NCBI RefSeq assembly: GCF_036250755.1
Contig: NZ_CP109583.1
Span: 2,790,001-2,854,000, forward strand
DNA length: 64,000 bases
From: Streptomyces uncialis
Lineage (GTDB): Bacteria; Actinomycetota; Actinomycetes; Streptomycetales; Streptomycetaceae
Direction: 5' to 3'
Under the pieces are notes generated by a model, which saw nothing but the letters and a program-made list of their open reading frames with translations, had not been told where the DNA came from and did no database searches. Every line of letters begins with the position of its first letter. The stretch's first letter is position 1. Position numbers and translations under genes: made by a program. Below are positions 18,397 to 63,690 of this stretch, piece after piece.

Positions 18397-19121
18397 AACC
18401 CACCCAGTATCATCCACGGGTTCTGGCGGGGGCGCCTTGACGGGTCGCTGGGCGTACTTGTCCCCGTGCGGGTCGCCTTCGCTTGCGCTTCCTAGGTCTG
18501 TCCGGCTGGACGCACTTGTCCCCGCACAGGTTGTCCGTGGGTGCGCAGTTCCCCGCGCCCCTGAGGTGCTGCCCCCTTGCGGTCGCCCTTCGGGTGCGGG
18601 CCGGTTCTCGTCTTTGCGCAGTTCCCCGCGGGTCGCCTTCGCTTGCGCTTCCTAGGTCTGTCCGGCTGAGCGCACTCGTTCCTGCACAGGTTGTCCGTGG
18701 GTGCGCAGTTCCCCGCGCCCCTGGGTGGTGCCCCCTTGCTGTCGCTCCTCGGGTGCGGGTCGGTTCTCGTCTTTTGCGCAGTTCCCCGCGCCCCTGAAGG
18801 GGCGCTCCTCTCCTCCCGCGGTCGCGGTGCTGCGGGAGGGGGTGGGCGGGAATCTCTGCTCGCAGACTCCGATGCTCTTCAGTCGAGTCACGAAACGTCG
18901 TACCGAGCGTGTCGGATCGAGGACGGAGAATCCCGACCGGCACCGACCCGAAGAACAAGCAGAACGCGCCCCAAAGGGGCGCGGGGAACTGCGCGAAACC
19001 ACCGAACGACGGCACAGGAACGAAGTACGCCCCGCACAGGAAACCCAGGGGGGGCGAGGAACCGCCCCACAGAGAAAAAACCCGAATGACCCACCCCGGG
19101 GCACCGGGTTAGCGTCGGGGA
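18397..19121. repeat. Mosaic repeat cluster B (ftsY - acetyltransferase divergent gap)
   Basis: Plus-oriented core units lie at 18543-18562, 18616-18630 (truncated and fused to the next module), 18703-18722 and 18776-18795. A minus-oriented unit lies at 18975-18994. Between the two orientations is a shared central core (about 18834-18970) that includes TCTCTGCTCGCAGACTCCG and GGACGGAGAATCCCGACC. Both neighbouring genes start outward, so their promoters must lie within or beside this element. The open frames running through it are not genes: they encode the repeat in every frame. Confidence 0.85.
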
Positions 19122-20363
19122 ATGACCGCCATGGAGTACCGCACCATCCCCGAGGCAGACCTGCAAACGGCACTGGACCTGCACTACCTCGTGTTCCTGG
19201 AGAAGGCCCCGGAGGACGACACACGGGAATCCCACCGCGATGTCCTGCTCCACTGCGACCGCGTCGGCGCGTACGAGGGCGACGACCTCGTGGGCCTGCT
19301 GGCGGCCCACCCGCTGGACCTGTCCGTACCGGGCGGCACGCTCCCCGCCGCCGGCGTCACCTTCGTCTCCGTGGCCCCCACGCACCGCCGACGGGGCGTA
19401 CTCAGCGGCATGATCGCCGAACTGTTCCGCCGCTGCGCCGACCGCGGCGTACCCCTGGCCTCGCTGTGGGTGTCGGAGGCGGCCATCTACGGCCGCTTCG
19501 GCTTCGACCCGGCGACCCACTCGTACACGGTGACCATCGACGCCACCCATCCCCTGGACCTGCGGATCACCCCGGACGAGCGGCCCCTGCGGCTGCTCCC
19601 CTTCGCGTCGGCGGCCCCAGTGATCACGCCCCGCCACGAGGCGGCCCGCCGGGACCGGGCCGGCCGGGTGGCCCGGGACGACTGGTGGTGGCGTACCCAG
19701 GTGCTGCCGGAGACGTTCGAGGAGGACGACGAGATGACGGAGCCCCGGGTGGTGGTCCTGGGCGACCCGGGCGAACCCCCGGCCGGTTATGTCGTGTACC
19801 GCACGAAGACCGACGACGAGGGCCGGGGCACGGCGCATGTCGAGGAACTGGAGGCCGAGTCCCCGGAGGTGGCCGCCGCCCTGTGGCGCTACACCGCGTC
19901 GATCGACCTGGCGGACAAGGTACGGGCGTGGGGCCGCCCGCTGGACGATCCGCTGCTGCGTTTCGCGGGCGACCGCGACCAGGTGGACGTCACCCGGGAG
20001 TTCCCCGGCCTGTGGCTGCGGCTGGTCGACGTCCCGGCCGCGCTGACGGGCCGGACCTGGTCGGCGCCGGTGGACCTGGTGCTGGAGGTCACCGACGCGG
20101 GGGTGCCGGAGAACGCGGGCCGGTACCGTCTGACGGCGAAGCCGGACGCCGGGGGCGCCCACCGCGCCGAGGTGACCCGTACGGACGACGCGCCGGACCT
20201 CACCCTCGACGTCCGGGAGCTGGCCGCCTGCTACCTCGGTGGCACGGACCCGGCGGAGCTGGTGCGGGCGGGGCTGGTCGAGGAGCACCGCCCGGGTGCC
20301 GCGGCCCTGCTGGGCCAGGCGTCCCGTACCGAACTGCTGCCGCACACCACGGACGAGTTCTGA
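19122..20363 (+). CDS. Eis-like GNAT N-acetyltransferase
   Basis: 413 residues. The N-terminal GNAT domain has the acetyl-CoA-binding signature VSVAPTHRRRGVLSGMI (about 86-102). It is followed by a second GNAT-like domain and a C-terminal SCP2-like sterol-carrier fold (VDLVLEVTDAGVPENAGRY...LDVRELAACYLGG), the three-part layout of the Eis family. Mycobacterial Eis acetylates aminoglycosides and host proteins; the substrate here is unknown. It is a lone gene after repeat cluster B. Confidence 0.88.
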   Translation: MTAMEYRTIPEADLQTALDLHYLVFLEKAPEDDTRESHRDVLLHCDRVGAYEGDDLVGLLAAHPLDLSVPGGTLPAAGVTFVSVAPTHRRRGVLSGMIAELFRRCADRGVPLASLWVSEAAIYGRFGFDPATHSYTVTIDATHPLDLRITPDERPLRLLPFASAAPVITPRHEAARRDRAGRVARDDWWWRTQVLPETFEEDDEMTEPRVVVLGDPGEPPAGYVVYRTKTDDEGRGTAHVEELEAESPEVAAALWRYTASIDLADKVRAWGRPLDDPLLRFAGDRDQVDVTREFPGLWLRLVDVPAALTGRTWSAPVDLVLEVTDAGVPENAGRYRLTAKPDAGGAHRAEVTRTDDAPDLTLDVRELAACYLGGTDPAELVRAGLVEEHRPGAAALLGQASRTELLPHTTDEF

Positions 20364-20489
20364 GCCCCGGCCCCCGCGCGAGCCGTCCACCCGGCCGCGC
20401 GGGGCGCCTCGCCACCCACGGACGGCAACGCACCCGCGACGGGACCCCGCACCGGGCGAACGGGAACAGGAACGGGAACCGCACCGGGT

Positions 20490-21902
20490 TCAGCCCATCT
20501 CCTCCAGGGCCTTGCCCTTGGTCTCCTTGACGAATTTGAGGACGAAGGGGATGGAGAGCGCGGCGAAGCAGGCGTAGATGATGTAGGTGGCGGACAGGTT
20601 CCAGTCGGCGAGCGACGGGAAGCTCGCGGTGATGGCCCAGTTGGCGATCCACTGCGCGGAGGCGGCGACACCGAGCGCCGCCGCGCGGATGCGGTTGGGG
20701 AACATCTCGCCGAGGAAGACCCAGACGACGACGCCCCAGGACATCGCGAAGAAGAACACGAACCAGTGGGCGGCGATCAGCGCCACCCAGCCCTGGGTGG
20801 CGGGCAGCTTGCCGTCCACCAGGTCGTAGCTGAACGCCCATGCCTCCAGGGCGAGTCCGATACACATACCGACCGAGCCGATCAGGGCCAGCGGCCTGCG
20901 GCCGACCCGGTCCACGAAGATCATCGCGACGACCGTACCGATGATGTTGATGATCGACGTGGTGAAGGAGTAGAAGAACGAGTCCGTCGGATTGACGCCG
21001 ACCGACTGCCACAGGGTCGACGAGTAGTAGAACGCGACATTGATGCCGACGAGCTGCTGGAACGCGGAGAGACCGATACCGACCCAGACGATCGGCAGGA
21101 ACCAGAACCGTCCGCCCAGCAGATCCTTGAACGTCGGCTTGTGCTCCCGGTGCAGATTCTCCTGGATCTCCGCGACCCGGGCGTCGAGGTCGACATGCTC
21201 GCCCTCGACCTCGCGCAGCACCGCGCGGGCGCGTTCGTCCTTGCCCGCCGAGACCAGATAGCGCGGCGACTCGGGGATGGCGAACGACAGCATCCCGTAC
21301 AGCGCGGCCGGGACGACCATCACACCCAGCATCACCTGCCAGGCCTCCAGCCCCAGCACCTCGCCGCGCTGGTCGCCGCCGGCGGCCTGGAGGATGCCCC
21401 AGTTGACCAGCTGGGACATGGCGATGCCGACGACGATCGCCGCCTGCTGGAAGGAGCCGAGCCGTCCCCGGTACGCGGGCGGGGACACCTCCGCGATGTA
21501 CGCGGGGCCGATCACGGAGGCCATGCCGATCGCGAAGCCGCCGACGATCCGCCAGAACGCCAGGTCGTACAGGGCGAACGGCAGCGCCGAGCCGATGGCG
21601 CTGACCAGGAACAGCACCGCCGCGATCTGCATGCAGCGGATACGGCCGATGCGGTCCGCGATCCGGCCCGCCGTGGCCGCGCCGATCGCACAGCCGATCA
21701 GCGCGATCGCGATGACCTGGGCGAGCGCGGCGGACCCGATGTCGTAGCGGCTGCGGATCGCCTCGACCGCGCCATTGATGACGGAGCTGTCGTAGCCGAA
21801 CAGGAATCCGCCCATCGCCGCCGACGCCGCGATGAAGATGACATGCCCGAGATTGTCGGGATGGGCTTCACGCGCTCCGGACGCGCTCGGTGTACTGGTC
21901 AC
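20490..21902 (-). CDS. glcP: Major facilitator sugar porter, glucose permease GlcP
   Basis: 470 residues with twelve predicted membrane spans. Sugar-porter signatures are FLFGYDSSVINGA near residue 37, GRIADRIGRIRC, ESPRYLV after span 6, and FVDRVGRRPLALIG. The region corresponds to S. coelicolor SCO5578, a glucose/H+ symporter that supplies glucose for carbon catabolite repression. It is convergent with the acetyltransferase and 180 bp from the smc stop. The sugar is assigned by synteny and family. Confidence 0.88.
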   Translation of the reverse strand: MTSTPSASGAREAHPDNLGHVIFIAASAAMGGFLFGYDSSVINGAVEAIRSRYDIGSAALAQVIAIALIGCAIGAATAGRIADRIGRIRCMQIAAVLFLVSAIGSALPFALYDLAFWRIVGGFAIGMASVIGPAYIAEVSPPAYRGRLGSFQQAAIVVGIAMSQLVNWGILQAAGGDQRGEVLGLEAWQVMLGVMVVPAALYGMLSFAIPESPRYLVSAGKDERARAVLREVEGEHVDLDARVAEIQENLHREHKPTFKDLLGGRFWFLPIVWVGIGLSAFQQLVGINVAFYYSSTLWQSVGVNPTDSFFYSFTTSIINIIGTVVAMIFVDRVGRRPLALIGSVGMCIGLALEAWAFSYDLVDGKLPATQGWVALIAAHWFVFFFAMSWGVVVWVFLGEMFPNRIRAAALGVAASAQWIANWAITASFPSLADWNLSATYIIYACFAALSIPFVLKFVKETKGKALEEMG

Positions 21903-22081
21903 GTATCACTCCTCGGGCCACCGGGGCGGGGCGGGCCCTTCCAGTGGCGCACAGGCGCACACGGCCCACCACCGGAGGAACCCGCGTGCCACCGGAAGGT
22001 GACGCCGCCTCACTCCATGGGGTGACCGGATACCCCGGACGCGCGCGGCCACACCGGTGCGCCGGCCGGCCGGGCGGAGGT

Positions 22082-25000
22082 TCAGCGCAGCCGCTGGCTG
22101 ATCACCTTGGAGACCCCGTCGCCCTGCATCGACACCCCGTACAGCGCGTCCGCGACCTCCATCGTCCGCTTCTGGTGCGTGATGACGATGAGCTGGGACG
22201 CCTCCTGGAGCTCCTGCATGAGCCGGATGAGCCGCTGGAGGTTGGTGTCGTCCAGGGCGGCCTCGACCTCGTCCATCACATAGAAGGGACTCGGCCGGGC
22301 CTTGAAGATGGACACGAGCAGCGCCACGGCCGTCAGGGACCGCTCACCGCCGGACAGCAGCGACAGCCGCTTGACCTTCTTGCCCGGGGGCCGGGCCTCG
22401 ACATCGATCCCGGTGGTCAGCATGTTGTCCGGGTCGGTGAGGACCAGCCGCCCCTCGCCGCCGGGGAACAGCCGGGAGAAGACCCCCTCGAACTCACGCG
22501 CGGTGTCCCGGTACGCCTCGGTGAACACCTGTTCGACCCGCTCGTCGACCTCCTTGACGACCTGGAGCAGATCGGTACGGGTCTTCTTGAGGTCCTCCAG
22601 CTGTTCGCTGAGGAACTGATGGCGTTCCTCCAGCGCCGCGAACTCCTCCAGCGCCAGCGGATTGACCTTCCCCAGCTGCTGATACGCCCGCTCGGCGGCC
22701 CGCAGCCGCTTCTCCTGCCCGGCCCGGTCGAACGGCAGCGGCTGGTTGCGGGGGTGCGCGGGGTCCTCGGGCAGTTCCTCGCCGTCGGCGGGCGGCGACG
22801 GCGGCACGGGCTGGTCGGGCCCGTACTCCGCGATCAGCCCGGCGGGCTCGACGCCCAGTTCCTCCAGCGCCTTCGTCTCCAGCTGCTCGATCCGCATCCG
22901 CTTCTCGGCGCCCAGCACTTCGCCCCGGTGCACCGAGTCGGTCAGCTTGTCGAGTTCCGCCTTCAGTACCCGGCCGGTGTCCCGGGCGGCGGCCAGGTCC
23001 CGCTCACGGACGGCCTTGGCGCTCCCGGCGGCGGACTGCTCGGCCTCGGCGCGCAGCAGGGACACCTCGGCGTGCGCGAGGAGCTGCCGGGCGCCGGAGG
23101 CGACGGCGGCGGCGACGGCCGCCTCGTGCCGCAGCCGCGCCACCCGCTGCTCGGCACGGGTCCGGGCCTCGCGTTCGGCGCGGGCGGCCCGGTCCAGGCC
23201 GTCGGCCCGGCCCACGAGCGCCTTGACCCGTTCCTCATGGGTGCGCAGCTGGAGGCGGGCCTCCATCTCGGTCTGCCGGGCGTTGGCGCCGTCGGCGGCG
23301 AGCCGGTCGCGTACCGAGGTGTCGGGTTCCTCGCCCTCGTCGGCGACGGCCGCGCTCTCCTCGGCGACGACGAGCCGTTCGGCCCGTTCCTCGACGTCCA
23401 TGAGTGCCTGCTCCAGCGCCTCCTGGGCCGCCTCGGCGGCGGCCCGGGCGCGGTCGGCCTCCCCGGCGGCGCCGCGCGCCTGCCCGGCGAGCGCTCCGAG
23501 CCGCTGGGCGACCGACGACCTGGCGCGGTCCGCGGTGCGCCGCAGGGTGTCCAGTTCCTCGGCCCGGGCGGCGTGGGTGCGGCGCAGTTCCCCGGCGGTG
23601 CGCTGCTCGTCGGCGAGTGCGGCGCAGCGCTGTTCCAGCTCGGTGAGCTCGGCCGCCGCCTCGTCCGCGGACGCCTGCACTTCGAGCAGGCTGGGTGCCC
23701 CGGCCGACCCGCCGTGCGCGAAGTGGGCGCTCAGCAGATCACCCTCGGCGGTGACGGCGGTCAGCGCGGGCCGCGCGTGGACGAGGTCCTCGGCGTCCTC
23801 CAGGGTGCCGACGACGACGAAGCCGCGCAGCAGCCGCCGGACGGCGGGCATCAGTTCCTCGGGGCCGCGCACCAGATCGGCGGCGCGCGGCGGGTGCCTG
23901 CCCGCCGGGACGGGGTCGGGGTCCGGGTCCGGGGCGTGGGTGAGCAGTATCGACGCACGGCCGCCGTCCTGCTTGCGCAGTCGCCGGATGGCCTCGGCGG
24001 CCTGCGCGGTGGAGGTCATGGCGACGGCGTCGGCGGCGGCGCCGAACGCGGCGGCGACGGCGACCTCGTGACCGGGGGTGACGGTGAGGAGTTCGGCGGC
24101 GGGGCCGAGCAGTCCGGTGAGGCTGTCCCGGGCGGCGAGCAGTGCTCCGGTGCCGTCCTTGCGGCGCAGTCCGAGGGACAGTGCCTCATGGCGGGCGGCG
24201 ACGGCGGCGCGGCGGCGTTCGACGGCGGTGGCGGCCTCGCGGGCGGTGGTGAGCGCGGTGTCGGCGGCGGCGAGCTCGGCCTTGGCGTCCTCGTAGCGGT
24301 GGCCGAGTTCCTCGTCGCCCGCGTCGAGTCCGTCGACCTCGCCCTTCAGGTTCTCGTACTCCTCCTGGGCGGTGGCGGAGCGTTCCTGCGCGGCGTCGCG
24401 GGCGGTGGCCAGCCGGTCGATCTCGGCCTGGGCGGAGGCGGCGCGGCTGCGGGCGGCGGCGACCTGGCCGCTGAGCCGGGCGAGCCCTTCGCGGCGGTCC
24501 GCGATGGCGCGGGCGACGTCCTTGAGACGGCGTTCCTCGTCGGTCAGGGCGCGTTCCAGTGCGGCGCGGTGGGTGATGGTGTCCTCCAGCGCGAACGCGG
24601 CGGCTTCGAGGGCGGCGTTGAGTTCGGCCTCCTGTTCGCGGACGCGGGCGGCCTCACGTTCCATGTCCTCGGGGTCCCGGCCGCGCCGCTCGTCGGGCGG
24701 GGCGGAGGTGGCGCTGGTGACCCGGGCGTCGGCGAGGGAGACGGTGCCACGGACGCGTTCGGTGAGCCGGGAGAGGTCGAACAGGGTCTGCTGGGCGCGC
24801 TGGAGGCGGGGGGTGAGCCGCCGGACCTGGTCCTCCAGGTCCTCCTCGCGGGCGGCGGCCGCCTTCAGTTCGGCCTCGGCGCTCTCCTTGCGGCGCTTCA
24901 GCTCGGCCTCGTCCGCGATCTCGGTACGCAGCGCCTCGCGCAGCCGCACCAGGTCGTCCGCGAGCAGCCGCAGCCGCGCGTCCCGCAGATCGGCCTGGAT

Positions 25001-28671: not shown

Positions 28672-28756
28672 CGGGCCTTTGGCGAGCCGGGGTCTTCCGG
28701 TGGCCGGATGCTGCCTGGCCCGGTCGCCCTTCGGGTGCGGGGCGGTTCTCGTCCTC

Positions 28757-28776
28757 GCGCGGTTCCCCGCGCCCCT
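28757..28776 (+). repeat. Mosaic repeat unit, cluster C
   Basis: A single plus-oriented copy (GCGCGGTTCCCCGCGCCCCT) in the 146-bp space between the convergent CAP-domain and mutM genes. It is preceded by the CGGTCGCCCTTCGGGTGCGG module seen in the large clusters and followed by GTCGGGGCG, giving a hairpin. It probably doubles as the terminator for both genes. Confidence 0.75.
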
Positions 28777-28817
28777 GTCGGGGCGTCGGCGTCCGTGGTC
28801 GGTAACGGGCCGGCGGG

Positions 28818-34055: not shown

Positions 34056-34740
34056 AGGTGCGTCTTGCCCTTCGGCAGCGGTCGGTCACGGTCACGCCCA
34101 CGATATGGCGTCCCCCGGGCCCCGGCAGCTCGCCTTCGCTTGCGCTTGCGAGGATTGCGGTGCGGGTCGCCTTCGCTCGCGCCCCCGGGTTTCTTGTGCT
34201 GGGCCCACTTCGTCCCTGCACGGGTCGCTCGTGGGGTGCGCGGTTCCCCGCGCCCCTGGGTCGCGCCCCTTGCGGTAGCCGCTCGGCTGCGGATGGTCCT
34301 TGGTTGCTCGCGCGGTTCCCCGCGCACCTTCGGGGGCGCCCCTTGCGGTTCCCGTTCGGGTGCGGGTGGTCCATGGTTGCTCGCGCAGTTCCCCGCGCCC
34401 CTTCGGGGGCGCCCCTTGCGGTAGCCGCTCGGCTGCGGATGGTCCTTGGTTGCTCGCGCAGTTCCCCGCGCACCTTCGGGGGCGCCCCTTGCGGTTCCCG
34501 TTCGGGTGCGGGTGGTCCATGGTTGCTCGCGCGGTTCCCCGCGCCCTTTCGGGGGCGCCCACCTGGGGCTGTTCTCGGTCTGCGGGAGGGGGTGGGTGGG
34601 ACGGAGGATCCCGACCTGCACCGACCCGAAGAACCGGCCGGACGCGTCCCGAAGGGGCGCGGGGAACTGCGCACCCACGGACGGCCCGCGCGGGAAGCAC
34701 GTACGCCCAGCACAAGAAACCCAGGGCGTGAGCGAAAGGA
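34056..34740. repeat. Mosaic repeat cluster D (recG - rsmD gap)
   Basis: Plus-oriented units at 34238-34257, 34310-34329, 34383-34402, 34456-34475 and 34529-34548; the last four are spaced exactly 73 bp. A minus-oriented unit lies at 34653-34672. Between them a short version of the shared central core is present (about 34579-34650, with GGATCCCGACCTGCACCGAC). Hairpins such as GCGCCCCTTCGGGGGCGC follow several units. No real gene; the rsmD promoter must lie at the left edge. Confidence 0.85.
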
Positions 34741-42200: not shown

Positions 42201-42388
42201 GGCGCCGTGCGGAGGCGGAGGGCCGCGCGCGGTCGGTGCTGGCGTCGTCCGAGGGGTCCTCGGACGACGGGGCGGTCGGGCGGGCCGCCGCCGCTGTCGC
42301 CGCGGAGGAGTTGCTGGCGCATCTGGCCCAGGGGGTCGGGCCCAGGGGGCGGGTCGGCGGTAGCGGGGCGTCTTCGCTTGCGCCGTGA
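39272..42388 (+). CDS. Large TPR-like helical-repeat protein, HSP90 partner candidate
   Basis: 1038 residues; ATG at 39272 overlaps the HSP90 stop (ATGA). Residues 1-330 form a conserved helical region with Trp/His-rich blocks (SLHWAFKWMSAGMLDQPHI, ACELHDQAWFEAHRRHDEQ). From about 390 onward repeated 34-residue-like helix pairs appear (FERAAGLYEEAGDPDEAVEA, LIQRERYAEAAEVLEAALPD, QAYERAGELWRELGNPYGF). There is no enzymatic motif or export signal. Eukaryotic HSP90s use TPR co-chaperones, but this HSP90 lacks the MEEVD tail, so any contact must differ. Function is inferred from the coupling only. Confidence 0.78.
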   Translation: MTDANAPAMDLGALRAAIAENDGRPEGPARNARAEALVVAAEGLGVPLAVIEALGHQLQVYCYSSEKDKMFVPFARLLRMWDEGPQDFDEYETHSLHWAFKWMSAGMLDQPHIPLASIEKWLAEMEHRYRVAGFSERAVRSSEHSVALHIGDLERAERAHRAWRAADRDRMSDCHACELHDQAWFEAHRRHDEQALELWRPVLEGEYTCAHEPHASLASSLLPLVRVARLDEARAHHLRGLRLVREMESMRGAYAQHVEFCALTGNEARALELLADRPAYFTDDGQPRSRMNYLAVTALLTERLIELGLGERPVPGPAGRSWTARELAEHARGEAVAIGARFDERNGSGHVGAELRARMAQRPLVERLPLGVRAPRLPKVSTRQPVRAPVDEPSGGGLDALLAEARRLTEARHPGAGAAWAAALGAADEAGVPLTVRDRAEIADHEAMAGADAALFERAAGLYEEAGDPDEAVEARARGAYVRAMRDGATGAGALSALTEATGRAVARYEESGEGARHAASMLLYHARVLMLALYEAPAEQPERTEPGGPTEAVGPEAGDGTGNEVSRTAEAAVLRLLALTERHPDDPRLVSRRAAAHAMLAELAAFGGDTEGSMAGFTRAWQGYVAAGTPWFAAEPASRLATLARHLEDLDTATRAARAALEHGGAFLSPSHHAQLHSQLADGLARQGEVVEASAHALEAAHWADEADEGPVMGAWARHQLGGLLIQRERYAEAAEVLEAALPDLTQEAHGDGTLVQTRWWLGDCLRELGNHRGAAEHWLVAADLARAWPEQRDHAMLAHMAAESLGHAGLPAEADQAYERAGELWRELGNPYGFVRSLRARAWLMVDEDAGHLAQAGAAEARELMEAAVLECVAALSAADRATAAQGDGDDEGAGAGARERLVSELAQTRRQFAELLLRGHGGGTDEDPAVRAVFEEALGHMDLAVDAYTSLGPAARDGAMSATVAAGWLLGRLGRRAEAEGRARSVLASSEGSSDDGAVGRAAAAVAAEELLAHLAQGVGPRGRVGGSGASSLAP

Positions 42389-43137
42389 GGGCTTCGGCGG
42401 TCAGCACGGGTTCCCGTGCGGGGTGCTCGTGGGGTGCGCCGCTTGCTGTGTCCGCTCGGGTGCGGGTCGCCTGTGGTTGCTCGCGCAGTTCCCCGCGCCC
42501 CTACGGTCGCGCCCCTTGCTGAGTCCGCTCGGGTGCGGGTTGCCTGTGGTTGCTCGCGCTGTTCCTCGCGCCCCTGCGGTCTCGGCCCCTGGGCGTACTC
42601 GTTCCTGTGTGGGTACTTACGGGGGTGCGCAGTTCCTCGCGCCCCTGCGGTCGCGCCCCCTGCCGTGCCCGCTCGGGTGCGGGTCGTCCGTGGTTGCTCG
42701 CGCAGTTCCTCGCGCCCCTTTGGGTCGCGGCCCCTGGGCGTACTCGTTCCTGTGCCGTCGCTCGGTGGGTGCGCAGTTCCCCGCGCCCCTGCAGTCGCGC
42801 CCCTTGCCGTGCCCGCTCGGGTGCGGGTTGCCCGTGGTTGCTCGCGCAGTTCCTCGCGCCCCTTTGGGTCGCGGCCCCTGGGCGTACTCGTTCCTGTGCG
42901 GGTACTACGGGGGTGCGCAGTTCCTCGCGCCCCTGCGGTCGCGCCGCTTGCCGTGCCCTTTCGGGTGCGGGTTGCCTGTGGTTGCTCGCGCAGTTCCTCG
43001 CGCCCCTGCGGTCTCGGCCCCTGGGCGTACTCGTTCCTGTGTGGGTACTTACGGGGGTGCGCAGTTCCTCGCGCCCCTGCGGTCGCGCCGCATGCTGTGT
43101 CCGTTCGGGTGCGGCAGACCCGTCACGCCAGGGTGGG
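42389..43137 (+). repeat. Mosaic repeat cluster E, nine-copy tandem array
   Basis: Core units start at 42483, 42556, 42627, 42700, 42771, 42844, 42915, 42988 and 43059, all in plus orientation. Spacing alternates 73 and 71 bp, so the real unit is a dimer of about 144 bp. One half carries GTTGCTCGCGCAG, the other GGCGTACTCGTTCCTGTG. Most copies have TTCCTCGCGC instead of TTCCCCGCGC. The array lies between two convergent genes (TPR and DAK) and probably ends both transcripts. No core segment or inverted units, unlike clusters B, D, F and G. Confidence 0.88.
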
Positions 43138-52393: not shown

Positions 52394-52799
52394 ACACACC
52401 CCAGGTCTGTCCGGGTGGGCGCGCTTGTTCCTGTGCCGTCGTCCTGGGGTGCGCAGTTCCCCGCGCCCCTTTGGGGGCGCCTCAGCCTCCTGAGGCTGGC
52501 CGTCGTCCGCGGGCTGTCCGGAGAATCCCGACCGGCGCCGCCCCGAAGAACCCACCGGGGGTGCCCCAAAGGGGCGCGGGGAACTGCGCAAAAGACGAGA
52601 ACCGGCCCGCACCCGAAGAGCGACGGACAGGGGCAGCATCCAGGGGCGCGGGGAACTGCGCACCCACCGGGCGACGGCACAGGGACAAGCGGGCCCACCC
52701 GGACAGACCCAGAAGCGCAAGCGAAGGCGACCCGCAGGGACAAGGCGACCGCAGGAGGCAGCATCGGCCCCACGCCCGCCGGGAAGCTACCGTGTGGGG
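52394..52799. repeat. Mosaic repeat cluster F (after cofC)
   Basis: One plus-oriented unit at 52451-52470 faces two minus-oriented units at 52570-52589 and 52642-52661 (72 bp apart). Between the orientations is a short version of the central core (about 52503-52565, with GGAGAATCCCGACCGG). The unit at 52451 forms GCGCCCC-TTT-GGGGGCGC. The promoter of the 67-residue gene must be in the last 100 bp. No gene seen. Confidence 0.85.
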
Positions 52800-53090: not shown

Positions 53091-53774
53091 CTACCGCTTG
53101 CGGGCGGTGGCCTTCTTGGCGGTCGTCGTCTTACGCGCGGTCGACTTCTTGGCCGGCGCCTTCTTCGCGGTGGTCTTCTTCGCGGGCGCGGTCTTCTTGG
53201 CCGCGGCCGTCGTCTTCTTGGCGGTGGCCGTGGTCTTCTTGGCCGCCGTCGTCTTCGCGGGGGTGGCCTTCTTCGCCGTGGCGGTGGTCTTCTTCGCCGT
53301 GGTCTTCTTGGCGGTGGCCGTGGTCTTCTTCGCGGCGGCCGTCGTCTTCCTGGCGGCGGCCGTGGTGGTGGCCTTGCGGGCCGTGGCCTTCTTGGCGGTG
53401 GCCTTCTTCGCCGCGGCCTTGGTGGTGGTCCTGGTGCCACCGGTCAGGCTGCCCTTGGGGGCCTTCTTGACGGAGACCTCGCCGCCCTTGGGGAGCTTCT
53501 TGGAACCGCTCACCAGGTCCTTGAACCCCTGGCCCGCACGGAAACGGGGCACGGAGGTCTTCTTGACCCGCACGCGCTCCCCGGTCTGCGGGTTACGGGC
53601 GTACCGCGCCGGCCGCTCGACCTTCTCGAACGAGCCGAAGCCGGTGACCGAAACACGGTCCCCACCGACAACTGCGCGCACGATGGCGTCGAGTACGGCA
53701 TCGACGGCGTCAGCGGCCTGCTGACGGCCGCCGACCTTGTCGGCAATCGCTTCTACGAGCTGCGCCTTGTTCAC
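53091..53774 (-). CDS. hupS: HU-family nucleoid protein with lysine-rich tail
   Basis: 227 residues from a GTG at 53774, GAAGGGGAAG upstream. Residues 1-93 are a standard HU fold (MNKAQLVEAIADKVGG, VTGFGSFEKVERPARYARNP, PRFRAGQGFKDLV). Residues 100-227 are an Ala/Lys/Thr tail with repeated KKTTA/AKKTT units, similar to histone H1 tails. S. coelicolor HupS compacts DNA in spores. Upstream sequence is AT-rich with a TATATAT stretch (53838-53844) that may hold the promoter. Confidence 0.96.
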   Translation of the reverse strand: MNKAQLVEAIADKVGGRQQAADAVDAVLDAIVRAVVGGDRVSVTGFGSFEKVERPARYARNPQTGERVRVKKTSVPRFRAGQGFKDLVSGSKKLPKGGEVSVKKAPKGSLTGGTRTTTKAAAKKATAKKATARKATTTAAARKTTAAAKKTTATAKKTTAKKTTATAKKATPAKTTAAKKTTATAKKTTAAAKKTAPAKKTTAKKAPAKKSTARKTTTAKKATARKR

Positions 53775-56728: not shown

Positions 56729-56748
56729 CGTTTCACAGAGTGAGACGC
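56728..56748. promoter_or_regulatory. Second inverted repeat next to the ndgR start
   Basis: GCGTTTCAC-AGA-GTGAGACGC, 9-bp arms with one mismatch, ending 13 bp before the ndgR ATG. IclR-family operators are often short palindromes of this kind; autoregulation is inferred. Confidence 0.45.
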
Positions 56749-56760
56749 GAATATCGTTGC

Positions 56761-57477
56761 ATGGACAACTCTAGTGGTGTCGGCGTACTCGACAAGGCGG
56801 CTCTCGTACTGAGCGCCCTGGAGTCCGGTCCGGCCACCCTCGCCGGGCTGGTCGCGGCGACCGGGCTCGCCCGGCCCACGGCACATCGTCTCGCGGTCGC
56901 CCTGGAGCACCACAGGATGGTCGCCCGCGACATGCAGGGGCGGTTCATCCTGGGCCCGCGGCTCGCGGAGCTGGCCGCGGCGGCCGGCGAGGACCGGCTG
57001 CTGGCCACGGCGGGGCCGGTGCTCACGCATCTGCGGGACATCACGGGAGAGAGCGCGCAGCTCTACCGGCGCCAGGGTGACATGAGGATCTGTGTGGCCG
57101 CCGCCGAGCGGCTGTCCGGACTGCGGGACACCGTGCCCGTGGGGTCCACGCTGACCATGAAGGCGGGCTCGTCCGCGCAGATCCTGATGGCCTGGGAGGA
57201 GCCGGAGCGGCTGCACCGCGGTCTCCAGGGCGCCCGTTTCACGGCCACGGCGCTGTCGGGTGTGCGCCGCCGGGGCTGGGCGCAGTCGATCGGCGAGCGG
57301 GAGCCGGGGGTCGCCTCGGTGTCCGCGCCGGTGCGCGGCCCGTCCAACCGTGTCGTCGCGGCCGTCTCGGTGTCCGGCCCGATCGAGCGGCTGACCCGCC
57401 ACCCGGGGCGGATGCACGCGCAGGCGGTCATCGACGCGGCGGCCCGGCTCTCCGAGGCCCTGCGCCGCACGGGCTGA
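56761..57477 (+). CDS. ndgR: IclR-family regulator NdgR
   Basis: 238 residues from the ATG at 56761. N-terminal winged helix ([39 protein letters not shown]), C-terminal IclR effector domain ([54 protein letters not shown]). NdgR in S. coelicolor controls leucine and other amino-acid genes, including leuCD, and affects antibiotic yield. Divergent from leuC, as there. Confidence 0.94.
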
Positions 57478-57487
57478 TCCCGTACGA

Positions 57488-57522
57488 GCGGCGCGCCGGA
57501 CCCGTCCGGCCCGGCGCGCCGC
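57488..57522. terminator. Terminator between ndgR and DUF4188 gene
   Basis: GCGGCGCGCCGG / CCGGCGCGCCGC: perfect 12-bp stem with 11-nt loop in the 95-bp convergent space. Confidence 0.85.
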
Positions 57523-57572
57523 GAAGGACCGCGACCCGGCGTACGTCACGAAGAACCGGACCGCCGGGACGG

Positions 57573-58070
57573 TCAGGCGCCGCCGGGTGCCGCGGAGCCG
57601 AACCGCTGGGCCGCACGGTCGCCCCGGCGCCCCACGGGGACCGTGCCGCGGGCGGCCCCCAGTCCGAACGCGGGCATGTCCACGTAGACGTTCTCGTAGG
57701 CGCCCGCGGGGACCAGGTAGGTCTCGTGGAAGATCCCGACGCTCCCCCGGCCGTCCCGTGCGCGGCGGTTGAACGCGGTCCAGGCCGGCCGGTGCTCGGC
57801 GTCCTGCCGTGAGGCGTACGCGAGCAGCTTCTCCTTCGACTCCCAGTACTGGACCGTGCTGAAGACACGGGGCGAGTAGAGGAAGCGGTACCCGAGCATC
57901 CCGGAGTCCGGATCGTCGGACAGCTCCTTGAGCATCGGCGGCATCGCACGCACGGTCGGCAGCCAGCTGCGCACCGCCCGCCAGTTGTTGACCCGCATCC
58001 CGATGAGGAAGACCACGATCTCCTCGTCGGCCTCGGTCGTCATCCGCCCCTTGTTCGGCTCAGCACCCAT
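57573..58070 (-). CDS. DUF4188 family protein
   Basis: 165 residues, ATG at 58070 with GGGAGA 7 nt upstream. Matches DUF4188 ([79 protein letters not shown]). The fold appears to be a dimeric alpha/beta barrel, as in small monooxygenases and dehydratases; no catalytic residue can be named. Divergent from the MerR regulator with operators between, so probably its target. Confidence 0.85.
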
Positions 58071-58095
58071 GGCGTTCTCCCAGGCAAGAGTGGTT

Positions 58096-58112
58096 GGATA
58101 GTCTCACTATCC
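58096..58112. promoter_or_regulatory. Candidate MerR operator 1
   Basis: GGATAGT-CTC-ACTATCC, perfect 7-bp arms with a 3-bp centre, 26 bp before the DUF4188 start and 43 bp before the MerR start. Confidence 0.65.
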
Positions 58113-58118
58113 TTCTTT

Positions 58119-58135
58119 GGATAGTGCCACTCTCC
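58119..58135. promoter_or_regulatory. Candidate MerR operator 2
   Basis: GGATAGT-GCC-ACTCTCC, the same palindrome with one mismatch, 23 bp centre to centre from operator 1. Confidence 0.6.
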
Positions 58136-58154
58136 AACGAAGGGTGCAAGTGCC

Positions 58155-58856
58155 ATGAGGCTCGCGGAGCTGAGCGCGCGCAGCGGGGTCCCGACCGCGA
58201 CGATCAAGTACTACCTGCGCGAGGGACTGCTTCCGGCGGGCCGCCGGATCAGCGCGACCCAGGCCGCGTACGACGACGTCCATCTGCGCCGGCTGCGGCT
58301 GGTACGGGCGATGATCCAGGTCGGACGGGTCCCGGTGGCGACGGTCCGGGAGGTGCTCGCGGCGGTGGACGACGACTCGCTGGACCACCACATGCGGCTG
58401 GGCGCGGCGGTGTGGGCGCTCCCCCATGAGCTCGGCGGGACGGATGTGACGGCGGACGACGACGGTGCGGAGGTGACCGAGGCGGCCCGTGGCGCGGTGG
58501 ACGCGCTGCTGGACCGGCTCGACTGGCCGTTCGCCCGGCTGGCGGGCGCGGATTCCCCGGCGTACCGGACGCTGGTCGGCGCGCTGGTACGGCTGGCGCA
58601 GCTCGGATACCCGTGGGACATCGACCACTTGACGCCGTACGGCCGGCTCGCGGAGCGGCTGGCGGTGGCCGATCTGGACATGGTGCAGGGGTACGGCCCG
58701 GCGGACGAGCAGGTGGAGGCGGCGATCGCGGTGACGGTGCTCTACGAGCCGGTGCTGCTGAGCCTGCGACGGCTCGCGGACGGCGAGGAGTCGTACCGCC
58801 GCTTCGGCGAGCAGGAGCACGCACCGGGGGACGACGCCCCCGAGGCGGACGGCTGA
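58155..58856 (+). CDS. MerR-family transcriptional regulator
   Basis: 233 residues, ATG at 58155. N-terminal MerR winged helix (MRLAELSARSGVPTATIKYY, LREGLLPAGRRIS, DVHLRRLRLVRAMIQVGRVP). The C-terminal 150 residues are helical and have no cysteine metal site, so the effector is not a classical metal or thiol signal. Most likely regulates itself and the divergent DUF4188 gene. Confidence 0.88.
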   Translation: MRLAELSARSGVPTATIKYYLREGLLPAGRRISATQAAYDDVHLRRLRLVRAMIQVGRVPVATVREVLAAVDDDSLDHHMRLGAAVWALPHELGGTDVTADDDGAEVTEAARGAVDALLDRLDWPFARLAGADSPAYRTLVGALVRLAQLGYPWDIDHLTPYGRLAERLAVADLDMVQGYGPADEQVEAAIAVTVLYEPVLLSLRRLADGEESYRRFGEQEHAPGDDAPEADG

Positions 58857-58893
58857 CGCGGCAGGGACCGGCCCCGGCCCCGGGGGTGCACGA

Positions 58894-58923
58894 GAAGGGC
58901 CCTCCCCGTGGGGAGGGCCCTTC
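58894..58923. terminator. Bidirectional terminator, MerR gene / tRNA operon
   Basis: GAAGGGCCCTCCCC-GT-GGGGAGGGCCCTTC: perfect 14-bp stem, followed by TTC on the plus strand and TCG on the minus strand. Ends both the MerR gene and the minus-strand tRNA transcript. Confidence 0.88.
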
Positions 58924-58939
58924 TTCGCTACAGCTCTGG

Positions 58940-59012
58940 TACCCCCGACCGGATTCGAACCGGCGCTACCGCCTTGAGAGGGCGGCGTGCTAGGCCGCTA
59001 CACAACGGGGGC
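58940..59012 (-). tRNA. tRNA-Glu(CTC), copy 1, CCA encoded
   Basis: Cloverleaf on the minus strand: acceptor GCCCCCG/CGGGGGT, anticodon loop CTCTCAA (anticodon CTC), T-arm GGTTCGAATCC. CCA is genomically encoded at 58937-58939, unlike the other Glu copies here. Last tRNA of the array. Confidence 0.95.
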
Positions 59013-59075
59013 CTGAGTCGTACTGTGCTGCCCGTCACCCACGCACGGAAGGTGCTTGGGGTGAGCGGAACCGCG

Positions 59076-59147
59076 CTGGCCTACCAGGACTCGAACCTAA
59101 ACTAACTGAACCAGAATCAGTCGTGCTGCCAATTACACCATAGGCCA
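59076..59147 (-). tRNA. tRNA-Gln(CTG), copy 1
   Basis: Acceptor TGGCCTA/TAGGCCA, anticodon stem ACTGA/TCAGT with loop TTCTGGT (anticodon CTG), T-arm GGTTCGAGTCC. 72 nt. CCA not encoded. Differs from the second Gln copy by one base, at 59102-59104 region of the variable/T arm. Confidence 0.95.
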
Positions 59148-59177
59148 TGGCTGGTCCGGATTACTGGACCGAGTGCG

Positions 59178-59250
59178 TACCCCCGACCGGATTCGAACCG
59201 GCGCTACCGCCTTGAGAGGGCGGCGTGCTAGGCCGCTACACAACGGGGGC
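59178..59250 (-). tRNA. tRNA-Glu(CTC), copy 2
   Basis: Same 73-nt sequence as copy 1, anticodon CTC. CCA is not encoded (GCG follows the acceptor on the plus strand). Confidence 0.95.
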
Positions 59251-59334
59251 CTGGCGATCCCACCCGGCTCATCACCGGGTGTTGTCACCGCTGGGTCGGC
59301 AGGAGCTACCTGGCGATCATGCGGGATGGATCAG

Positions 59335-59407
59335 TACCCCCGACCGGATTCGAACCGGCGCTACTGCCTTGAGAGGGCAGCGTGCTAGGCCGCTACACAA
59401 CGGGGGC
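59335..59407 (-). tRNA. tRNA-Glu(CTC), copy 3 with compensated anticodon stem
   Basis: Identical to the other Glu copies except that the anticodon stem is CTGCC/GGCAG instead of CCGCC/GGCGG, a compensatory pair change. Anticodon CTC. Confidence 0.95.
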
Positions 59408-59428
59408 GATGCAGATAAGCTCTGCGAG

Positions 59429-59500
59429 CTGGCCTACCAGGACTCGAACCTAGACTAACTGAACCAGAATCAGTCGTGCTGCCAATTACACCATAGGCCA
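59429..59500 (-). tRNA. tRNA-Gln(CTG), copy 2
   Basis: 72 nt, anticodon CTG, acceptor TGGCCTA/TAGGCCA. First tRNA of the minus-strand array, 91 bp from the HAD gene. Confidence 0.95.
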
Positions 59501-59590
59501 CCGCGACGCAACCCCCTCGCGGGGATCTTGTTCGGTATCGCGCTTCCCGGCCGGACCTTCTCGGCCCTCTCGGGCGGCGCAGGAAGAACA

Positions 59591-60316
59591 TTACCCGAAG
59601 GTGGACGGCGCTCCAAAACGGGTATCCGCGCGGAGCAGCGCGGGGAGTTCGGCGAGCGAGGTGATCCGGCGCAGCCCCGGCGGGACCTCCGCCGTCCACA
59701 GCCCGCGATCGAGCCATACGGAGAAGAGCCCGGCGGCCTCCGCGCCCACGGCGTCGATCTCCGGCTGATCACCCACGTACGCCACTTCGTGGGCGGGCAG
59801 TCGCAGAGCGTCACACGCGGCGTGGAACGCCTCGGCGGCGGGTTTGGCGATGCCCAGCTCGGCGGCGCACAGCACCGACTCGAAGCGGTCGTGGACGCCG
59901 AGGACCCGCAGTTTGTGGTCCTGGTTGCGCAGGGAGGAGTTCGACAGCACCGCGTGCCGGTGGCTGCCGGCCAGGGCGTCCAGGGCGGGCAGGACGTCCG
60001 GGAAGAGGGCCCAGGCGTCCTGGTAGTAGGCCACGTACCGGTGGAACCAGTCGTCCGCCTGCGCGTCGGTGAGCGGGGCGTCGAGAAAGATCCGGACGCG
60101 GTCCCGGCGCTGGTCCTCGAAGGACACCCCGCCCGCCTCGAACCGCCGCCACTGGGCGTTCGTGACCTCCCGCCACAGCGCGAGGGCCCGCTCGGCGGTC
60201 CCGTACCGCTCCAGCAGGCCCTCGGCTCTCAGATGACTCCGCATCCCGGCGCGGTCCGCCGTGGTGTAGTCGAAGATCGTGTCGTCGATGTCCCACACCA
60301 CGGCGCGGATGCTCAT
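59591..60316 (-). CDS. HAD-superfamily hydrolase
   Basis: 241 residues, ATG at 60316. Haloacid-dehalogenase phosphatase fold: motif I VWDIDDTIFDYT with nucleophile Asp near residue 9, motif II LSNSSLRN, motif III Lys in LGIAKPAAEAF and motif IV VGDQPEIDAVGA. Likely a small-metabolite phosphatase; substrate unknown. It follows gltX by 16 bp on the same strand, so they are probably co-transcribed into the tRNA array. Confidence 0.92.
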   Translation of the reverse strand: MSIRAVVWDIDDTIFDYTTADRAGMRSHLRAEGLLERYGTAERALALWREVTNAQWRRFEAGGVSFEDQRRDRVRIFLDAPLTDAQADDWFHRYVAYYQDAWALFPDVLPALDALAGSHRHAVLSNSSLRNQDHKLRVLGVHDRFESVLCAAELGIAKPAAEAFHAACDALRLPAHEVAYVGDQPEIDAVGAEAAGLFSVWLDRGLWTAEVPPGLRRITSLAELPALLRADTRFGAPSTFG

Positions 60317-60332
60317 ACGCCGACGGTAACCG

Positions 60333-61808
60333 TCAGCCCGCCAGCTTCACCAGTGCCGCGTCGATCCGGGCCAGGGCACGGTCCTTGCCCAGGACCTCCA
60401 GCGACTCGAAGAGCGGCAGGCCGACCGTACGGCCGGTGACGGCCACCCGGACCGGGGCCTGGGCCTTGCCGAGCTTGAGGCCGTGCTCCTCGCCCGCCGC
60501 GAGGACGGCTCCCTTGAGCGACTCGGGGCTGCTCCAGTCGGCGTCGGCGAGCTTGGCGCGGGCCGTGCGCAGCAGGGCGTCGGAGCCCTCCTTCATGGCC
60601 TTCTGCCAGGACGCCTCGTCCGCGACGGGCTCCTTCAGGAACAGGAAGTCGACGTTGGCGGTGATGTCCGACAGGACGGTGAGCCGGGTCTGGGCATGCG
60701 GGGCGATGGCCTCCCACGCGGTCCGGTCGAAGTCCTCGGGCGCCCAGGGGGCGTGCGGCGCGCGCAGCCACGGTTCGCAGGCCTCGGCGAAGGTCTTCAC
60801 ATCGAGCAGCCGGATGTGGTCGGCGTTGATGGACTCGGCCTTCTTGAGGTCGAAGCGCGCCGGGTTGGCGTTCACGTCGGCGATGTCGAAGGCCGCGACC
60901 ATCTGGTCGATGGAGAAGACGTCCTGGTCGGCGGAGAAGGACCAGCCGAGCAGCGAGAGGTAGTTGAGCAGTCCCTCGGGCAGGAAGCCGCGCTCACGGT
61001 AGAGGTTGAGCGAGGACTGCGGGTCACGCTTGGACAGCTTCTTGTTGCCCTCGCCCATCACGTACGGCAGGTGCCCGAACGCGGGGACGGCCTCGGCCAG
61101 GCCCAGTCCGATGAGCGCCTGGTAGAGCGCGATCTGGCGGGGGGTGGAGGACAGCAGGTCCTCGCCGCGCAGCACGTGGGTGATCCCCATGAGGGCGTCG
61201 TCGACGGGGTTGACGAGCGTGTACAGGGGGGCGCCGTTGGCACGGACGATGCCGTAGTCCGGGACGTTCTCCGGGGTGAAGGTCAGTTCGCCGCGGACCA
61301 GGTCCGTGAAGGTGATCGGCCCGTCCGGCATCCGGAACCGGGTGATCGGGGTACGGCCCTCGGCCTCGTACGCGGCCTTCCGCTCATCGGTGAGGTCACG
61401 GCAGTGGCCGTCGTACCCGGAGGGCTTGCCGGCGGCGCGGGCGGCGTCGCGGCGCGCGTCCAGCTCCTCGGTGGTGCAGTAGCAGGGGTACGCGTGACCG
61501 GCCGCGCGGAGCTTGTCCGCGACGTCGGCGTAGATGTCCATGCGCTGCGACTGCCGGTACGGGGTGTGCGGACCGCCGACCTCGGGGCCCTCGTCCCAGT
61601 CGAGCCCGAGCCAGCGCAGCGAGTCGAGGAGCTGCTCGTACGACTCCTCCGAGTCTCGGGCCGCGTCGGTGTCCTCGATGCGCAGGACGAGGGTGCCCTT
61701 CTCGTGCCGGGCGTACGCCCAGTTGAAGAGGGCGGTGCGGACCAGGCCCACATGGGGGTTGCCGGTCGGCGAGGGACAGAAACGTACACGGACGGGTCCG
61801 TTAACCAC
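60333..61808 (-). CDS. gltX: Glutamyl-tRNA synthetase
   Basis: 491 residues from a GTG at 61808. Class I synthetase with HIGH-type motif [18 protein letters not shown] near residue 10 and KMSKS-type [11 protein letters not shown] near residue 245. The C-terminal anticodon-binding domain is helical. Streptomyces lacks GlnRS, so this enzyme also charges tRNA-Gln with glutamate for GatCAB conversion. The start overlaps the FAH gene end by 8 bp. Confidence 0.97.
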
Positions 61809-62598
61809 GCGTGATCACCTTGTTGGTGAGAGTGCCGATGCCTTCGATGGAGACGGCGACCTCGTCGCCGACGTTCAGGGGGCCGACCCCGGCGGGGGTG
61901 CCCGTGAGGATGACGTCCCCGGGGAGGAGCGTCATGGCCTCGGAGACATGGACGATCAGGTCCTCGACCGACCTGACCATGTCGCTGGTGCTGCCGAGCT
62001 GGCGCTGCTGTCCGTTGACCGTGCACTGGAGGGTCAGGTTCGCCGCGGTCGCCAGGTCGATGCCGGTCTCGACCCAGGGGCCGAGCGGGCACGAGGTGTC
62101 GAAGCCCTTCGCACGCGACCACTGGTTGTCGCTGCGCTGGATGTCACGCGCGGTGACGTCGTTGGCGCAGGTGAAACCGAGGATCACGTCCTTGACCCGC
62201 TCGTGCGGGACATCGCGGCAGAGGCGTCCGATCACCACGGCCAGTTCGGCCTCGTAGTGGACCTCCTGCGAGAAGGACGGGTACGCGATGCCGTCGCCGT
62301 CGCCGATCACCGAGGTGCTCGGCTTGAGGAAGGCGACGGGGGTGGCGGGGACCTCGTTGCCCAGTTCCGCGGCGTGCTCGGCGTAGTTGCGGCCGATGCC
62401 GATGACCTTGCTGGGGAGGACCGGGGGGAGCAGACGGACCTGGTTCAGGGGGACCCTGGTGCCGGTCGTCTCGAACTCCGCGAACGGGATGCCCTTGATG
62501 ATGTTGAGGACCAGACCGTCGGTGGAGCCGGGCGGGCTGTCGCCCTCGACCACGCCGAAGGCCACATTGCCGTCGATGGAGAATCTGGCGATGCGCAC
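61801..62598 (-). CDS. Fumarylacetoacetate hydrolase (FAH) family protein
   Basis: 265 residues from a GTG at 62598, with AAAGGGG upstream. The FAH fold is shown by [27 protein letters not shown], the metal-binding [13 protein letters not shown] (Glu-x-Glu), [14 protein letters not shown] and [16 protein letters not shown]. Members hydrolyse or decarboxylate acylpyruvates and oxaloacetate; the substrate is not predictable. Translationally coupled to gltX; after repeat cluster G. Confidence 0.93.
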
Positions 62599-63690
62599 GG
62601 TGGCTGGCGCCCCTTTCTTTCCGCTGGACCGGTGAAGCCCCAGGCTAACGCTCAGGTCGCCTTCGCTCGCGCCCCCCGGGTTTCCTGCGCTGGGCGCACT
62701 TGTCCCCGCACAGGTCGTTCGTGGGTGCGCAGTTCCCCGCGCCCCTGGGGTGCTGCCCACTTGCGGTCGCTCTTCGGGTGCGGGGCCGCCCTCGCTTTTG
62801 CGCAGTTCCTCGCGCCCCTGGGGTTCCACACCTGGGCGTACCTGTTCCCGTGCGGGTCGGACGGGGGTGCGCAGTTCCCCGCGCCCCTGAGGTGCTGCCC
62901 ACTTGCGGTCGCTCTTCGGGTGCGGGGCCGTCCTCGCTTTTGCGCAGTTCCCCGCGCCCCTGGGGTTCCACACCTGGGCGTACCTGTTCCCGTGCGGGTC
63001 GGACGGGGGTGCGCAGTTCCCCGCAGGTCGCCTTCGCTCGCGCCCCCGGGTCTCCTGTGCTGGGCGCACTTGTCCCTGTGCCGTCGCTCGGTGGGTGCGC
63101 AGTTCCCCGCGCCCCTGGGGTTGCACACCTGGGCGTACCTGTTCCCGTGCGGGTCGGACGGGGGTGCGCAGTTCCCCGCGCCCCTGAGGTGCTGCCCACT
63201 TGCGGTCGCTCTTCGGGTGCGGGTCGCCCTCATTTTTGCGCAGTTCCCCGCGCCCCTGAAGGGGCACCCCCTTCCTCCCGCAGTCGCGCTGCTGCCGGAG
63301 GGGGTGGGCGGGAATCTCTGCCCGCAGACTCCGATGCTCTTCAGTAGCTCCGCTGGACGTCGTACCGAGCGCGTTGGAGCGAGGACGGAGAATCCCGACC
63401 GGCACCGACCCGAAGAACAAGCCGGACGCGCCCCAAAGGGGCGCGGGGAACTGCGCAAGAACGAGAACCGCCCCGCACCCGACCGACAACACCAGACAGG
63501 CAGCGCCCCGACAGGGGCGCGGGGAACTGCGCAAACCCACGAACGACGGCACAGGAACAAGTGCGCAAGGCCGGACAGACCTGGGAAGCGCAAGCGAAGG
63601 CGACCCGCGGGGAACCGCGAAACCACCGAGCGACCGCACAGGAACGAAGCACGCCCAGCGGGAGAAACCTCAGAAGCGCAAGCGAAGGCG
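62599..63690. repeat. Mosaic repeat cluster G, largest convergent element
   Basis: 1.09 kb. Plus-oriented units at 62727, 62800, 62869, 62942, 63011 (truncated), 63097, 63166 and 63238. Minus-oriented units at 63437-63456, 63513-63532 and a degenerate one at 63607-63619. Between them the full central core (63294-63435) is nearly identical to that of cluster B, including TCTCTGCCCGCAGACTCCG and GAATCCCGACCGGCACCGAC. Alternating 73/69-bp spacing in the left arm. No gene; the FAH promoter must lie at the left edge. Confidence 0.87.

Follow-up and report, generated by a model that had tools for sequence, protein, structure and literature searches.

High-copy repetitive extragenic palindromic (REP)-like elements are usually explained by REP-associated tyrosine transposases (RAYTs), and the enterobacterial repetitive intergenic consensus (ERIC) is an imperfect palindrome of about 127 nt. 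In excerpts of the published accounts, bacterial interspersed mosaic elements (BIMEs) are described as REPs in alternating orientation, most tabulated REPs starting GTAG or GTGG (PMC2817692), and REPINs as REP doublets that form hairpins (PMC3116915). An extract of a further source presents ERIC and bacterial miniature inverted-repeat transposable elements (MITEs) as intergenic, with copy numbers that vary widely between relatives, and Rickettsia palindromic elements as repeats inserted in frame in a protein gene, with a unit of about 150 (PMC10969869). Here we analyze a repeat family built on a 20-nt core that recurs in intergenic clusters of a 64-kb stretch of the Streptomyces uncialis genome (the window, C1:2790001-2854000 of an assembly of 9,258,615 bases in 3 contigs). 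In these clusters tandem arrays of the core, the arms, face each other, mostly around a stem-loop of about 119 nt that we call the centre. On balance, the clusters appear to be whole or partial copies of one composite, non-autonomous, dispersed Streptomyces element of REPIN or ERIC type that would be moved in trans and lengthened in tandem.

The family shares with the BIME/REP elements of E. coli its mosaic intergenic palindromic repeats and shuffled flanking modules; it differs in sequence, the clusters sampled in this genome never alternate and the genome has no RAYT-type match. The core starts GCGCAGTT, set here beside the GTAG and GTGG starts of REPs without matching of positions. With REPINs, as the excerpt presents them, it has in common short extragenic palindromic repeats, inverted pairs, high copy number and also tandem arrays. 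The single hairpin that an inverted doublet forms in REPINs is found here too: in cluster B the facing cores fold together with the centre into one long hairpin, and at locus L288 of another genome (G032) two cores between convergent genes make a perfect palindrome with a 4-nt loop. Unlike in REPINs, a stem-loop stands between the inverted repeats and the arms are tandem arrays, and neither this genome nor the five next-highest-copy genomes has a RAYT-type match. ERIC and MITEs are, in the extract cited, likewise intergenic and variable in copy number among relatives; the likeness to ERIC is one of description, and the present family has flanking core arrays and belongs to another taxon. MITEs are characterised by terminal inverted repeats with target-site duplication, lack of coding capacity and mobilisation in trans; here inverted cores stand on both sides of the centre as candidate ends. 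An in-frame repeat within a protein gene, here smc, is a trait in common with Rickettsia palindromic elements as that extract describes them, but the unit here is about 45-69 nt and a single gene is concerned, in its hinge region, the repeats being otherwise intergenic in the examined loci. By these comparisons the structure resembles a REPIN or an ERIC/MITE more nearly than a BIME.

Results

A high-copy intergenic core

At up to 3 mismatches the core has 33 matches in the window, all of them with 2 mismatches or fewer and 19 exact, with 26 on the plus and 7 on the minus strand; chance level was 0.05 on average and 1 at most (100 shuffles). The matches are confined to seven intergenic spaces (near 14.3, 18.5-19.0, 28.8, 34.2-34.7, 42.5-43.1, 52.5-52.7 and 62.7-63.5 kb), which agrees with the initial annotation, where about 30 copies had been reported in seven such spaces. 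Of the limits given there, 18543..63532, 32 of the 33 cores respect them, but the minus-strand core at 14266-14285 precedes them. As that annotation describes, clusters B, D, F and G have plus copies facing minus copies, and flanking modules and hairpins stand beside the cores; near-identical modules are common to different clusters. Genome-wide, the count suggested there gave 1,380 matches at up to 1 mismatch (706 forward, 674 reverse) and none for a reversed control.

Gene context was determined in 854 kb of this genome (the window and 790 kb more, about 9% of the genome), where genes were called with a purpose-written codon-usage gene caller and 77-83% of each segment was coding. The 258 cores of this sample (up to 2 mismatches) occupy 63 intergenic spaces and none lies within a called gene. 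The claim that the core never occurs in a gene thus holds for the sampled part of this genome, but not for its relatives, in which 12 named loci carry it in smc (see below). No match to the centre or the repeat was obtained in Rfam at gathering score; a match to RF02136 (22.3 bits, gathering score 70) was taken as chance. Searches of the literature with core strings gave no match, those with the stem-loop string gave no title naming Streptomyces, and no paper on this repeat family was found among titles and the beginnings of abstracts, in line with the earlier view that no Streptomyces family of this kind had been named.

Inward-facing arms around a conserved centre

All 38 clusters of the 854 kb that contain both orientations read >..><..<, plus cores (>) always standing before minus cores (<). 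The initial annotation had proposed a BIME-like architecture. The family is indeed an intergenic, high-copy, palindrome-bearing mosaic, but the orientations in these clusters are not mixed and a BIME architecture is not borne out: all 38 are inward-facing, mostly around a conserved stem-loop which that annotation had missed.

An arm unit measures about 69-73 nt and holds one core, which points inward; spacing of cores within an arm is mostly 68-74 nt and in some cases near 138-161 nt. A GGGGCGC run-in that completes a hairpin is found at 89 of 101 innermost cores versus 23 of 157 other cores, and a T-rich tract (at least 6 T in 8 nt, no more than 16 nt past the hairpin) follows in 20 of the 101 arms, 81 having none. 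The gap between facing innermost cores falls into groups near 199-200, 221-228, 241-243 and 252-257 nt, with one outlier of 272 nt and five shorter ones (66-171 nt); these five were omitted from an alignment of the 33 inter-arm spacers longer than 190 nt, which has a near-invariant centre. A motif search of the 854 kb led to 37 full centres, every one inside a cluster, while 26 of the 63 clusters have no full centre. The centres are distributed over both strands (19 plus, 18 minus; left-hand segments 11:9, right-hand segment 8:9). At all 37 an inverted core lies 47-49 nt downstream of a conserved CGAGGACGG, and the 5' arm is richer in cores than the 3' arm in 32, poorer in 4 and equal in 1 (P=2e-6). 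On the strand of the stem-loop the element reads, 5' to 3', n tandem units, the GGGGCGC hairpin, the stem-loop, a fixed tail and 1-3 inverted cores. A subfamily of centres with CCGACGC and another tip has a coreless 5' arm at L033:18241-18405, L045:8450-8615, L064:7395-7560 and L070:10714-10879; a fifth member, L061:19195-19360, has three cores in that arm.

Structure and covariation of the stem-loop

The consensus fold of the centre consists of a long stem, an asymmetric internal loop and a second stem. Entropy exceeds 0.5 in 2 of 37 and 6 of 52 columns on the stem sides versus 17 of 26 in the tip, which has 31 distinct forms among 37 copies. The innermost cores and centre of cluster B are predicted to fold on the plus strand at -135.9 kcal/mol (z -7.0).

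Pairs changed on both sides do not occur within this genome; the support for covariation comes from relatives. Of 22 sequences extracted from relatives 21 were used, one with a centre identical to another being omitted. In these, 95.6% of cells pair under a hand-written structure; both sides have changed in 46 cells, versus 16.6+-3.7 after shuffling and 0-4 in slid controls. The excess is less clear when pairs with a change on both sides are counted (7 versus 5.2 shuffled, a value reached by 35 of 500 shuffles) or further pair types (16 versus 14.2, reached by 83 of 500). G.U outnumbers A.C in stem cells by 23:2 in relatives and by 195:0 in this genome, the latter ratio being partly circular because the predicting method admits G.U but not A.C; several stem pairs are fixed as G.U. 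Guide-like tips were considered and rejected: tips have 13 fourteen-mer matches elsewhere in the 854 kb versus 0-20 in five shuffles. Since there is no excess, a target of the tip, if any, would lie outside the sampled 854 kb.

Distribution among relatives

The core is present in 25 of 61 sampled genomes, this one included, at 0 to 1,380 copies, and is not strictly genus-bound, one match with 1 mismatch occurring in a genome of another genus (G040). The stem-loop was searched for with a covariance model of this genome's centre (R1) and with a second model whose training set held no centre of this genome (R2). In the genus and class surveys 12-24 candidates were scored per genome, and in this genome 150, so that copy numbers are lower bounds; the stricter survey filters can miss stem-loop-bearing genomes. 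R1 detects at least 150 copies here, all 150 scored candidates matching, and gives weak matches in 8 further genomes among 150 sampled in the genus, which share the motif CCCGCAG ... CGAGGACGG and have different stems. R2 recovers the centres of this genome at E 2.6e-7 and, counting this genome, is positive in 75 of the 246 searched in the genus. When 296 genomes from 114 genera were drawn from the whole class, it matched 8, all Streptomyces, and none in the 113 other genera.

Around 64 centres from 34 other genomes, cores were sought up to 700 nt upstream and up to 500 nt downstream. A facing core was found at 29, at 17 of them both upstream and downstream, and a wrong-facing core at 2. Downstream of the centre, the inverted core follows at 86-90 nt in G164, G165, G246, G259, G453 and part of G014, the exceptions being three G014 loci (36-37 nt) and one G165 locus (148 nt). 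Stem-loop and inverted core, at a near-fixed distance in several species, are one composite element. In G221, G026 and G160 the stem-loop is accompanied by different, species-specific upstream repeats, with no core in the 20 stretches read; in this sample, then, the stem-loop is the wider part of the element and the core arrays represent one type of arm.

Presence and absence at orthologous sites

The spacer between recG and rsmD measures 685 nt with 6 cores here versus 37-244 nt with no core in all 29 relatives read. The rsmD loci sampled are the 30 best-scoring among 119 genomes with a match. A box next to rsmD, CATATCGTGG, is retained here and found in 20 of the 29. The ftsY loci are the best 80 of 586 confirmed ones, all named and nearly all Streptomyces; because best-scoring loci were taken, both sets are samples of near relatives.

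At 12 of the 80 ftsY loci (Table 1) the core lies within smc, in 17 copies that are all in frame and on one strand and that encode variants of RGAGNCATSHDEPADA. Tandem 69-nt (23-codon) copies are found in S. echinatus, S. eurythermus, S. mangrovisoli and strain Ru71. The reading frame is open in 11 of the 12, that of Ru71 having stops further on, and Pfam SMC_N and SMC_hinge are recognized in smc of this genome, L231 and L217. The segment is absent from species such as S. cupreus, and the smc gene of the present genome is core-free. In an smc tree with 59 rows (L187 and L217 left out, the rows of Ru71 and CC228A on spurious long branches) the 10 labelled rows require 6 changes, and well-supported branches force 3 of these.

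At cluster A the amtB-side part of the spacer 13972-14440, between an nsdA-like gene and amtB, resembles the spacer of relatives and the upstream part consists of repeat modules; read by eye, the relatives have a GC-rich inverted repeat after nsdA where these repeats stand.

Position and orientation relative to genes

Among spaces of at least 60 nt, cores occupy 25 of 87 convergent, 32 of 276 tandem and 6 of 105 divergent ones; convergent spaces are enriched compared with the rest (Fisher P=2e-5) and divergent ones depleted (P=0.009). For centres the corresponding counts are 13, 19 and 5, with a weaker convergent excess (P=0.013). Tandem spaces of this genome hold 10 centres co-oriented with the genes and 9 opposed to them. 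The 87 centres of relatives comprise 26 in convergent, 35 in tandem and 11 in divergent spaces, 10 at contig or locus ends and 5 overlapping a called gene; 22 of their tandem centres are co-oriented and 13 opposed (P=0.18). A simple terminator as the sole account, which the initial annotation had already doubted, was rejected in view of the unbiased orientation, the occupied divergent sites and the small share of arms with a T-rich tract. A termination role is still conceivable because such tracts do follow some hairpins.

Search for a mobilising enzyme and further counter-evidence

Most observations of this section weigh against a dispersed element moved in trans. The initial annotation had proposed a search for a RAYT-type transposase. 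Y1_Tnp, searched for with RAYTs and IS200-type TnpA counted together and with an E. coli positive control that matches, has no match in this genome, in the five next-highest-copy genomes (G032, G014, G001, which is 79% complete, G027 and G026) or in G009, G007 and G020. Among 27 other genomes 7 are positive (G011, G016, G022 and G033, with 45-86 cores, G164, G165 and the core-free G025). As these amount to 6 of 14 core-bearing versus 1 of 13 core-free genomes (Fisher P=0.08), a past link to Y1_Tnp is conceivable. Two other candidate partners were rejected. The reverse transcriptase RVT_1 is missing from this genome and occurs in 4 of 13 centre-positive versus 4 of 13 other genomes, and IS110 (DEDD) occurs in 10 of 13 versus 11 of 13. 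None of the 7 IS110 loci in this genome shows a core over the 4.5 kb examined. The searches for Y1_Tnp, RVT_1 and IS110 thus revealed no mover. Five of the IS110 copies (L280-L284) have about 1.3 kb in common; CGCCTGACA recurs as their left edge and AGCATCC as their right edge.

Neither clean ends nor target-site duplications were established, nor insertions that are polymorphic between strains. A plasmid or phage origin was rejected after blastn with three queries gave no match among PLSDB plasmids and phages, near-identical records being perhaps excluded. The nsdA-amtB spacer, 469 nt here and 0-628 nt in 75 relatives, is not longer than in some of them. The smc copies, on one strand and at one hinge position, also fit a few old events with vertical inheritance. 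Downstream of ftsY in S. mangrovisoli (L187, 11254-11499) four cores alternate < > < >. The minus strand of 18776..18995 folds nearly as well as the plus strand (-127.7 kcal/mol, z -6.6). The convergent enrichment and the T-rich tracts fit a selected 3'-end function too.

Features of the window

Full centres are present in clusters B and G, and remnants alone in D and F (Table 1). The gene at 14441-15913 is probably nsdA, judged by gene order. A GNAT-family gene (19122-20363) stands between ftsY and its upstream neighbour and is absent from the ftsY loci of 80 of 80 relatives (tblastn, 1e-20). Low-complexity repeats (CTTCTTGGCC...) at 53097-53441 lie within a called minus-strand gene (53091-53774), and five consecutive tRNA genes (Glu CTC x3, Gln CTG x2) at 58937-59500.

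Table 1 Repeat clusters of the window, with approximate limits for clusters A-G, and loci of relatives with a core in smc.
Feature	Position	Strand	Remarks
Cluster A	14160..14405	-	Single core 14266-14285 (minus) and outer modules, between gene 14441-15913 and the ammonium transporter gene amtB
Cluster B	18440..19060	+	Complete composite element; cores 18543+, 18703+, 18776+, 18975-
Cluster B, central stem-loop	18838..18956	+	Model R1, 144.1 bits; member of the R1 training set
Cluster B, innermost cores and hairpins around the centre	18776..18995	+	Folding
Cluster C	28700..28790	+	Single core 28757-28776
Cluster D	34113..34735	+	>>>>>< array between recG and rsmD
Cluster D, central stem-loop remnant	34588..34634	+	Tip deleted; 42.3 bits
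Cluster E	42370..43115	+	Nine plus cores at 71-73-nt spacing, without centre
Cluster F	52405..52745	+	><< array
Cluster F, weak remnant of central stem-loop	52509..52551	+	18.7 bits, E 0.045
Cluster G	62650..63690	+	Complete composite element >>>>>>><<
Cluster G, central stem-loop	63300..63418	+	142.6 bits; member of the R1 training set
smc loci with in-frame core, hinge region			L183, L187, L194, L217, L223, L224, L227, L228, L231, L238, L241, L247

Discussion

New in this family are the composite with its inward-facing arms, the hypervariable tip on an otherwise conserved stem-loop, a distribution that is broad in the genus yet patchy, and the copies read in frame within smc. Anatomy, polarity, pairing conserved between species, differences in copy number, presence or absence between species at recG-rsmD and a patchy occurrence in smc are observed directly, whereas transposition, the enzyme and the nature of the selection are inferred. 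If the clusters are copies of a dispersed element, the stem-loop and the facing palindromes would fold as RNA or single-stranded DNA, and an enzyme acting in trans would recognize this fold and copy or insert the element at new sites. The arms would then grow or shrink via tandem duplication and recombination. Selection would remove insertions from coding sequence and promoters, leaving most surviving copies downstream of genes.

The stem-loop could instead be a structured RNA that the host maintains in many copies, a regulatory or 3'-end/termination module, with facing hairpin arms as insulators or terminators of transcription from either side. The near-invariant stems and internal loop around a variable tip, the excess of G.U over A.C, the enrichment in convergent spaces, the hairpins at the innermost cores with T-rich tracts after some of them and the position of the cluster A repeats, where relatives seem to have an inverted repeat, all suit such a module. 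It accords poorly with the even orientation in tandem spaces here and the mild bias in relatives, with the 81 arms lacking a T-rich tract, with the 5 of 37 centres between divergent genes and with a presence as patchy as 75 of 246 genomes at the sensitivity of the R2 survey, and we regard it as possible but rather unlikely. Considerably less probable is that the repeats serve at the DNA level, as sites for gyrase or a nucleoid protein for instance, and act between convergent genes in the way proposed for E. coli BIMEs: the convergent bias, very high copy number and palindromes are as one would wish, but an excess of G.U over A.C in stems is unexpected for a double-stranded site, 38 of the 63 clusters lie outside convergent spaces and copy number ranges from 0 to 1,380 within one genus. 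That the repeats never moved, being old intergenic palindromes that slippage expanded in place and gene conversion homogenised, is similarly improbable, since the regular spacing, the near-identical modules common to clusters and the failure to find a mover are set against an orthologous recG-rsmD spacer that is empty in 29 of 29 relatives, a core in the smc coding sequence of some species and not others, and complete composites at many sites.

A more specific proposal, that the stem-loop is a new class of RNA in Streptomyces with a tip that selects its partner (a target DNA, an RNA or a protein), is borne by its own inward-facing repeats and belongs to a non-autonomous, possibly RNA-guided element, strikes us as a speculative one with little chance of being right.

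A single Streptomyces genome thus carries 1,380 cores without a RAYT-type or RVT_1 match, together with a structured centre that has undergone compensatory evolution and lies outside Rfam. The family raises the questions of what spreads REP-like DNA, what the stem-loop binds and how a repeat in the SMC hinge affects chromosome organisation. If the smc copies are insertions, Streptomyces would be a second bacterial setting, beside Rickettsia, in which palindromic repeats are translated within a conserved protein.

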